From Spirodela intermedia (lineage: Eukaryota; Streptophyta; Magnoliopsida; Alismatales; Araceae), in NCBI GenBank assembly GCA_902729315.2, contig LR746264.1, forward strand, positions 2,031,378-2,095,377: DNA of 64,000 nucleotides. Direction: 5' to 3'. Positions within the stretch are counted from its first letter, which is position 1; every line of letters begins with the position of its first letter. A program made the position numbers and the translations under genes. The notes below the pieces were generated by a model that did not search any database, was not told the origin of the DNA, and was given only the letters and a program-made list of their open reading frames with translations. Below, one piece after another: positions 48,985 to 51,900 of this stretch.

Positions 48985-51900
48985 TCATTGCTTGGGCATG
49001 GAGACATCTACCCCCAAGTACTGGTTGAGAACGTTTCTGAAAACCTACATACAACACATAACGCTGAAGTCAATAGAAAGAGAAAGAAAATGTACAATTT
49101 AAGATCACACAAGATCTTCTGATTCCGGAAAGAAAAATCACGTTCAACATCTCAGCTGCAGGGCTGATATCCAATCAAACGGAACATAATCCCTTCAAGA
49201 ATTACATACATGCTCTTGCATCTCAGCAGGTATCGGTGCCCAGAAGGCAGATTGATATTTATGACATGATTTAGCATGGTTACTTGGAAAGCAAGAAAGA
49301 AGGAACTACCTGGAAGGAAAATGACTCCTTTCCGTTTAAAATCGAATCCATTGCGGCAAAATGGTCATCGAATACCCCATAGAACAGCTGAAAGAACTCA
49401 CCCCTGGAGCAGATGGTGGGGGACAGTCAGATTTCGGAAGCAGAGATGCTGGAAAGAAATCAATATGATAAAAAAAAATATCATCATACTGTTCTTCTTT
49501 TGATGTCTGCTGATCAAGCTCGTCGAATTTACGAGTGAGGATCTCCGCCGCTAGAGGTGAGAGAGATTGCAGGATAAGAGCCTCCAAGGTTCTTGGGAAG
49601 CTATGCTGAAACGCCAATCAGAAGTATGTCATTGTAGAAAGATGTAGGTCTTAAAGTAGATTGCGTGATCAATTAATTGCAGGCAGTATAGATAAACTTT
49701 CTAAAGATGAGTTCTAGATCAGATCAACCTAATCCACGCCATTCTCACTAGACCCACCACTTTCTTCTTGTTGTTCTTCCTTCACCTTTGCCCTGAGCGA
49801 ATGATATCCCAGCCAGTTGTTGCCAAATTTGGGAAATAGTAGCTCGGGCTAGCTCTAGAAACCAGATTTGATGGTATCTAGCAGTTCCCGAAAACATTTC
49901 GAGGCTTCTTGATTTCCAGTGTTGAACAACGCCATGTACAGTTTCATGGTACTCATCTTCATTCATGGTCATGGTGGGATGCATATGGTCGTCTGTATGA
50001 AACTCCATATGCAGAAAGACTTTGAGATGACTATGGTGGTGATGAATGAGGAGCGAGAGATGACAGAAGTGATTTACTCAAGGTCGAGTTGACATGAATT
50101 TCGTTGGTATTGATGTGCCAATCATTACTTTCTCACTCTAGCATCTTCTATCAATACTAACACATTCTATAGCAATATCTAACTTTCGTCCAATTTCATT
50201 TCTGAAATTAAAATTTAAAGCTATAAATGGCAAAGTTCTAGGAACATCAAAGCTACCCAGAGAATCAAGACTAAATTTTTTGAGAGAAATATGAGGACGA
50301 ACCTCATACTCATACTCAGATTTATTTTACACTGGGACTAGCTAGTTGCTGCTCGGATGGGAGCTGGGGCTTTCAGGCACCTATTTTTAGTTCATGCACC
50401 TCGTCTACCTTCATTTGGGTTCAAGAAAACATGCAGATATACCCCAAATGCTAGTCAGCAGGATTGGCTAAGACTCTGTCAACTATGCCGTTGGTTACAA
50501 CGTTTTCTCCCTTTTGCCTTTTTTTCTTTTCATTCAACAACAAGGGTTGCACTGCCACCATATCGAGAGGAACAACGTGGCGACAGGCACTCAGCTCCGA
50601 AGAACGTGTCGGGAGGCACCCCTGCCACCGTGTCGAGAGGAACAACGTGCCGACAGGCACTCAGCTCCAAAGAATGTGTCAGGAGGCACCTCTGCCACCA
50701 TGCCGAGAGGCACATGTGGCATCCATCTCCCGAACAACGTGCCGAGAGGCACCTAGCTCTGAAAAACAACCTGCCAAGAGGCAGCCTTACGCCACCATGC
50801 CGAGAGGCACTAGTGGCATCTATCTCTGAAGAATGTGCTGAAAGGCACCAAAGTGCTTGGGTGTGTGAAGTACTCGGACGGGTGACCTCACGAGAAGTTC
50901 GGCTCAAGACAGTTATCCCCCAAAAAAAAAAAAAAAAAAAAAAAAAGGGGTTGCACTGCCCTGTAGGAGAGAGACAAGAAGATGTGCCAAATGATGATAG
51001 CAACATTTGTATTTACTAAATCCATCACTACGTTAATAAAATATATATGCATGCCGTCACAAGTTTCATCATTATTTTCGAATCATTTTTTTCAGATAGG
51101 TCCCTTTCCTGAATTGCAAGTTTACCGAATCTGATCCAGATCAATATGCTCACCCCAATTTTTTGATCCTGAAATAATTTCATGTCCTATATTTAGATGG
51201 CAACCAAGACATTAGGTTATCTTCTTGCATTTTAATCATCTCGTCTACACTATATTAAAATTTTCTAGGTAAAAAATCAAAATCATTGAGGCTATAGTAG
51301 TTCTTCAAGTGAATCCAAAGGAAAATCATCATACCACCATGGCTAGCAAGACACTTTGGAGTACACGTGGCTTCATTTTCTGCAGAATACCAGCAACAGG
51401 ATCTTCGCTGATGATAAATGAGCTTCCACTATGGCGTTTATCTTCTTGATTGTCCTCTTTGTGAGCAAAAGAGTCCTGCACATAAGACTGATCTTGGCTT
51501 GCAACTTTCACACTTTCATGAACCAATGAAACGATTTCATTCAGAGCTTGGAGCTCCAGTGGTTCCAACTGTTCCAACGACAGCCCTTTCTTTTCACCAT
51601 TTCCTCTCTCCGTTTTTTCATTGACACTAGTGTCGATTGGACCTGGAAAATATAAATGAGGATGGAAATCAACTCACTAGAAATACAACATCAGATATGA
51701 ACACTGGCTTCAGATAACATGGGGGGGAACACCAGTAAGCCTAGCAACACAAGGAACCTTAAATTTGCAGATCGATTTGGCCTCCTCTATTTTTCCACTC
51801 ATTCACCAGTTTCTGTTACCATCAGCAGAGAATAATAGGTTTGGGACAGCCTTGTTAACTTAATATGAGGGTCCCCTTGTTTCAGTGACGTGACTTGAAC

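Follow-up and report, generated by a model that had tools for sequence, protein, structure and literature searches.

The arrangement that we describe in Spirodela intermedia brings together two halves that each have a precedent, namely SINEs derived from 5S rRNA and non-LTR elements resident at telomeres, the latter being recorded from insects, fungi, algae, Giardia, and others in the available portions of two sources (PMC10088271, PMC12857005). The SINE3 elements of animals and fungi share with the plant SINE a 5S-derived head that includes the promoter region, the absence of any coding capacity that could be seen, duplications, and many copies; the plant SINE differs in possessing a second 5S-like piece at its 3' end, a tandemly repeated middle, and a poly(A) tail, in its concentration at telomeres, and in its flowering plant host. 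Cassandra is a further example of a 5S promoter sequence within a plant mobile element, but it is an LTR element that, unlike the plant SINE, does not involve poly(A)-tail retroposition, and we know of no link between Cassandra and telomeres.

HeT-A of Drosophila has no reverse transcriptase of its own and depends on that of another element. HeT-A, TART, and TAHRE resemble the elements reported here in having their poly(A) ends oriented centromere-ward and in stacking head to tail at chromosome ends, as described in the available part of a 2025 plant review (PMC12477314). In Spirodela, by contrast, telomere repeats lie between the elements, and a Pol III-type SINE is the principal cargo; telomerase-type repeats thus persist here, unlike in Drosophila. 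Morrish et al. in 2007 reportedly observed L1 retrotransposition at dysfunctional mammalian telomeres in mutant cultured cells, a situation that also involves poly(A) on telomere repeats and no visible specific target, whereas the record in Spirodela is natural and repeated across most arms. TRAS and SART (silkworm), Zepp (Chlorella), MoTeR1 (rice blast), FoTeR (Fusarium), and GilM and GilT (Giardia) are likewise non-LTR elements found among telomere repeats, and FoTeR and MoTeR1 have, as here, their 5' ends toward the chromosome end (PMC10088271 and PMC12857005, in the parts available); as portrayed there, these elements are autonomous and have their own frames, whereas a SINE and host mRNAs are involved here, and the partner LINE is also dispersed. 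The Penelope-like elements of Selaginella and the Terminons of bdelloids are retroelements on telomeric overhangs, and Terminons capture host genes, but both belong to another class of reverse transcriptase and attach through complementary repeats rather than poly(A) (PMC12477314, available part). In the same portion of that review, telomeric retrotransposons of the Drosophila sort are said to have so far not been found in plants, and only the Selaginella Penelope-like elements and the subtelomeric LTR element Retand are named (PMC12477314). Within a literature of partial coverage, neither the occurrence of SINEs at plant telomeres nor this particular 5S-derived family was found to have been reported, and the word SINE does not occur in the available part of the S. 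intermedia genome paper (PMC7645714).

The window insert and its SINE family

The window is the 64,000-nucleotide stretch of S. intermedia DNA that we analysed, and its initial annotation marked 50544-50960 within it as a retroposon that has a poly(A) tail of 25 A and identical 13-bp flanks. Both features proved exact and uphold that description: the plus-strand target site duplication GGGTTGCACTGCC is repeated without change at 50544-50556 and 50948-50960, its length was equalled in 0 of 500 flank shuffles, and the run of 25 A (50922-50946) is separated from the right copy by a single extra G (50947). The body of the element (50557-50921), delimited by genome matches and complete relatives, is 5' truncated and lacks a 5S-like head; it begins with 2.3 copies of a 70-bp tandem unit (50552-50714, the first five bases being shared with the left duplication) and contains a 5S-like piece at 50853-50898, all on the plus strand. 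The gapless likeness to 5S rRNA of some 50 bases that had been claimed is real, since the alignment check against nucleotides 58 to 103 of a 5S gene of the same genome gave 37 of 46 identities with no gaps, equalled in 0 of 2,000 dinucleotide shuffles. The Rfam model RF00001 scored the insert at 50865-50900 with 14.1 bits (E 8.5; cut-off 38), and no match at gathering level was present anywhere in the window.

The genome searched comprises 136.5 Mb in 32 contigs, 18 of them large (C1 to C18), and as the search scored only the best candidates, every count is a minimum and the positions given refer to scored copies. With the window insert as the query, there were at least 116 matches (40 of 106 candidates scored), and with a complete copy as the query, at least 152 (39 of 113 candidates scored), so the search for further genomic copies that had been proposed was productive, and the complete relatives share a 5S-headed structure. 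The complete element is about 550 bp long and consists, in order, of a 5S-like head, tandem units, a second 5S-like piece, and poly(A); in the complete copies read, these parts were not accompanied by a reverse transcriptase. The window insert is an interior, 5'-truncated member of a SINE family that derives from 5S rRNA, is non-autonomous, and has a complete length of about 550 bp. Its sole 5S piece adjoins the A-tail because the copy begins within the tandem units and the head is missing; 5S-like pieces at both ends of the family, together with 5' truncation, account for the 3' position that had seemed anomalous. The suggestion of an undescribed 5S-related plant SINE was essentially correct as to family structure and copies, and the word "undescribed" holds within the partial literature covered.

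The head of a complete copy matched 5S nucleotides 26 to 105 in 69 of 81 columns (0 of 2,000 shuffles were as good), and the second piece was identical at 37 of 47 positions; the tandem units had no 5S resemblance (1,476 of 2,000 shuffles were as good). Genome-wide, 34 RF00001 matches were listed (47 of 4,366 candidates scored), comprising 11 in the array of 5S genes on C15 and 23 at other places; among the matches listed, 8 of these 23 exceed the Rfam cut-off. The available part of the genome paper gives 18 chromosomes, with a major 5S locus on ChrSi15 and a smaller one on ChrSi14 (PMC7645714); none of the RF00001 matches listed corresponded to a 5S locus on C14. Complete elements start with AACCCCCC(TAA or TTA)GTGGGAGAG, and in the loci read, CCCCCC is followed by TAA in 47 and by TTA in 33 of 89 heads; the TAA variant gives the start of the SINE a likeness to the telomere repeat. 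In 78 of 83 heads, 47 nucleotides separate GTTAA from the first C, compared with 50 nucleotides between GTTAA and +1 in 5S; by this spacing, the start equivalent to that of 5S falls about 3 nucleotides upstream of CCCCCC and within about 2 nucleotides of the element start. One complete 553-bp copy contains no TTTT. On the strength of the 5S-type promoter in the head, the SINE is most likely transcribed by Pol III.

All seven interior copies (the window, C1:2.9 Mb, C4:7.7 Mb, C8:4.9 Mb, C9:4.7 Mb, C11:0.55 Mb, and C18:1.19 Mb) are flanked by duplications of 9 to 17 bp, and the 9-bp and 11-bp duplications were equalled in 2 and 1 of 500 shuffles, respectively. Two of them, the one at C1:2.9 Mb and the one at C11:0.55 Mb, demonstrate that CCCCCC is part of the element and not of the telomere. 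The copy at C11:547700-548900 (L060) is a complete SINE with a target duplication and no A-tail, and an additional 35 and 20 nucleotides lie between the duplication and the start of the SINE at C8:4.908 Mb (L058) and C18:1.188 Mb (L067), respectively.

Telomere junctions, the accompanying LINE, and captured mRNAs

Merging the matches listed for the complete copy with 19 match rows from the window insert gave 45 SINE clusters, and among the matches listed, 37 of the 45 are no more than 100 kb from the end of a contig; this terminal zone makes up 2.6% of the genome. These end-near clusters occupy 27 of 36 arms among the matches listed, and in the loci read, SINE heads were present on two further arms (C5 right and C6 left). 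The family is not exclusively telomeric: 8 of the 45 clusters among the matches listed, the window copy included, are farther than 100 kb from any end; the eighth, at C1:11.1 Mb and thus at a distance of 360 kb, is an array with telomere tracts. Terminal telomere arrays of about 2 kb, with the repeat TTTAGGG, are present at the right ends of C3, C16, and C18, and at L023 and L028 the outermost SINE abuts the terminal array. A sequence starting near CCGCATTTGCTCAACTTTTTTCTCTC recurs after SINE or LINE ends at L061 (as a close variant), L081, and L083 and constitutes an end-linked repeat.

The A-tails at contig ends run straight into CCCTAAA. In the genome, exact matches to A10-CCCTAAACCCTAAA number 54; there are no genomic occurrences of its backward reading or of the other telomere strand after A10, and A10 is followed by CC in place of the CCC register in 5 instances and by C or T before TAAACCC in 1. 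Loci for reading were chosen from hits to the junction string, and the junctions within them were then found by rule, yielding 84 that were filed as SINE (52), LINE (20), or other (12), a sorting that misfiles the U2B'' copy described below as SINE or LINE. The registers of these 84 junctions in the loci read were CCC (74), CCCC (3), and CC (7), with none at C or T; three of the seven registers start with A and merge with CCC, and an even spread would place two-sevenths of the junctions at C and T. The A-tails face the centromere in 76 of 81 junctions in the loci read (three on the unplaced contig C30 were left out), and the inward orientation is in the majority on 27 of 27 arms with junctions, counted within 400 kb of the end; the five of opposite polarity are at C6:5.65 Mb, C9:29 kb, C11:0.95 and 8.29 Mb, and C17:7.6 kb. 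With 76 of 81 tails inward and 37 of 45 clusters near an end among the matches listed, the fixed polarity of telomeric copies that is a trait of TRAS, SART, HeT-A, Zepp, and MoTeR is also a property of this system. At C11:952762 (L046), A17 is followed by CCCTAAACCCTAAAC in what is apparently a host gene, with no adjoining SINE or LINE.

An exact telomere 7-mer lies within 16 nucleotides upstream of 76 of 89 complete SINE heads and a 7-mer with one mismatch upstream of 4 more; 5 of the remaining 9 heads are interior. From an A-tail to the next complete head, the tract has a median length of 23 bp and is no longer than 50 bp in 36 of 50 cases, the two longest between-element tracts (278 and 298) including other sequence; telomere-joined A-tails reach 57 A. 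No age order by divergence was found among 76 tails on 14 arms (-0.004; 2,636 of 5,000 permutations were as high). Within arms, tract purity leaned nonsignificantly toward layering (170 of 3,000), and A-tail length was not significantly related to position (1,064 of 3,000); with all arms pooled, A-tail length falls with distance from the end (rho, -0.43), and tract purity is unchanged (rho, -0.09).

An L1-type LINE accompanies the SINE. At the left end of C5, a copy with the Pfam domains RVT_1, zf-RVT, RVT_3, and RNase_H lies between telomere tracts, being cut off directly after one tract and ending on the other side in A49 beside telomere repeats. The 3' end of the LINE has at least 40 full-size matches (40 of 133 candidates scored); among the matches listed, the large contigs contain 38 copies, 21 of them no more than 100 kb from an end and 17 interior, and a telomere repeat directly followed the A-tail in none of the 13 3' flanks read among these 17 interior copies. 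The LINE is not telomere specific. No APE-type endonuclease was seen, the C5 copy being cut off before that region and an interior copy showing only a 428-amino-acid frame from the reverse transcriptase tail and the RNase H region. Because of its company at chromosome ends and the shared use of poly(A), the LINE is the putative source of the enzyme.

Four A-tailed host mRNAs, encoding alpha-tubulin, eL34, U2B'', and an RRM/glycine-rich protein, were also found at telomere junctions, as was one more A-tailed insert at C18:4495076. The alpha-tubulin copy (1,710 bp, C4:20165-21874) has telomere repeats on both sides and an intact frame of 450 amino acids and is 99 to 100% identical to a gene on C3 that lies in four pieces, so the copy is without three introns; judged by its sequence, it is a very young full-length retrogene on a chromosome end. 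The eL34 copy, at the right end of C12 where the contig stops, is 97% identical to a gene on C8 in which no A-run is present at the position where the tail of the copy starts. The U2B'' copy at C1:11.1 Mb is 93 to 96% identical to a four-piece gene on C1, and further copies at C1:11382102-11382756 and C18:4491738-4491907 are 97 and 96% identical to it, respectively. The RRM copy on C2 is 94 to 97% identical to a two-piece gene on C3; its only Pfam domain is RRM, and its protein reads as glycine rich. The capture of spliced mRNAs shows that the telomere junctions were made by reverse transcription.

Probable priming at chromosome ends and competing explanations

We think it probable, with considerable room for doubt, that LINE machinery reverse-transcribes poly(A) RNA from a primer provided by the 3' end of the telomeric G-strand, mostly at short telomeres, and that telomere repeats are added afterwards. 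The SINE RNA would be the Pol III product of the 5S-type promoter in the head, and the L1-type LINE would recognize its poly(A) tail and reverse-transcribe it in trans; the few interior copies would arise by ordinary target-primed reverse transcription, with duplications of 9 to 17 bp. At chromosome ends, the 3' end of the TTTAGGG strand would prime reverse transcription inside the poly(A) tail, and telomeric repeats would then be added to the 3' end of the new cDNA, with telomerase as the presumptive healer, a role suggested by the telomere repeats at the 5' ends. Repeated rounds would generate a series in which the telomere is followed by a SINE, LINE, or mRNA copy, then by A(n), a short stretch of CCCTAAA repeats, and the next element, with A-tails centromere-ward. 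The polarity implies that the T-tract of the first-strand cDNA continues the G-rich strand, as expected from priming by a TTTAGGG 3' end, and the register implies that the last bases of the primer were GGG, or GGG with as many as three T added, such T being indistinguishable from the tail. The simplest model of stacking predicts that older elements lie further in, and this order by divergence was not found; exchange between ends may have erased it, or insertion may not always be terminal. The five junctions of opposite polarity and the interior copies of the LINE also tell against this explanation.

The most serious competitor, to which we accord a substantial minority chance, is that, in the manner of TRAS and SART, the G-strand is nicked within telomere arrays by the endonuclease of the LINE, such that the elements were inserted into telomeres and not added to ends. 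The L1-type endonuclease site is TTTT/A, to which GGGTTT/A is close, and the distribution of registers (74 CCC, 3 CCCC, 7 CC, and no C or T among 84) is compatible with a cut at GGGTTT/A; the interior SINE copies display nick-type insertion with duplications, and the missing age order suits insertion into an array at any depth. Against this, the between-element tracts, with their median of 23 bp and 36 of 50 no longer than 50 bp, are too short for random hits in arrays of about 2 kb and favour ends that had worn short, and interior LINE copies are located outside telomere repeats (0 of 13 flanks). We thus lean toward priming at the chromosome end, in which a short, free end would act as the primer, while leaving priming at a nick a real share of the weight.

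A less probable alternative, which we rate as having an outside chance, is that a few ancient junctions were multiplied as a subtelomeric satellite by unequal exchange or copying, with little or no end retroposition now. The same matches to the SINE and the LINE recur at equal distances on the right ends of C1 and C6, 83.6 kb from the contig ends, reflecting either a recent exchange between ends or a duplicated piece of the assembly, and such shared blocks, the inverted copies on C9 at 29 and 37 kb, and the absent age order are all in keeping with this account. Exchange surely adds copies but does not create the junctions between A-tails and telomere repeats, and the same junction occurs on unrelated RNAs (the SINE, the LINE, and four mRNAs), with tract and tail lengths that vary and A-tails of up to 57 A, and a tubulin copy 99 to 100% identical to its gene.

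An artefact of assembly at chromosome ends is very improbable. In its favour, a single assembly was analysed, the C1 and C6 ends appear duplicated, and telomere repeats are missing at some contig ends (e.g., L009, L015, L018, and L022), but many divergent copies on 27 arms share one polarity and register, for which reason a pure artefact was rejected, and three intact terminal arrays adjoin copies. That the window insert is a one-off chimera produced by template switching, as the initial annotation had entertained, or descends from an LTR element that bears 5S sequence in the manner of Cassandra, to which it had also been compared, is a notion of negligible probability that draws on the presence of 5S-related sequence at the 3' end only and is refuted by the complete copies, given that more than 100 related matches have a common 5S-headed structure, that tandem units and the 13-bp duplication are the only repeats in 50300-51250, where the flanking long direct repeats of an LTR element are absent, and that an A-tail and duplications of 9 to 17 bp are present; a Cassandra-like origin was accordingly rejected.

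A possible route of end repair and its significance

More tentatively, and as a possibility that we hold to be doubtful at present, G-strand priming may form part of a working route of end repair by retroposons that alternates with telomerase and for which the SINE has become tuned through a telomere-like cDNA end. A telomere worn down to a few repeats would be extended by the LINE machinery with SINE cDNA or any other polyadenylated cDNA; SINE RNA beginning AACCCCCCTAA would yield a cDNA ending TTAGGGGGGTT, near to the telomere repeat, that telomerase could extend immediately, the candidate substrate being an end in CTTAGGGGGGTT.

Many arms of one small plant genome record the repeated joining of copies of poly(A) RNA to telomere repeats, in a single polarity and a single register, with the SINE as the main cargo. 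The rebuilding of ends at short telomeres becomes testable in a plant that has telomerase-type repeats, and the same applies to the question of whether selection can favour a 5' end that resembles the telomere repeat in a selfish RNA. The telomere junctions can also serve to mark the turnover of ends, and they are a source of new copies of genes; in the tubulin copy the frame is intact.
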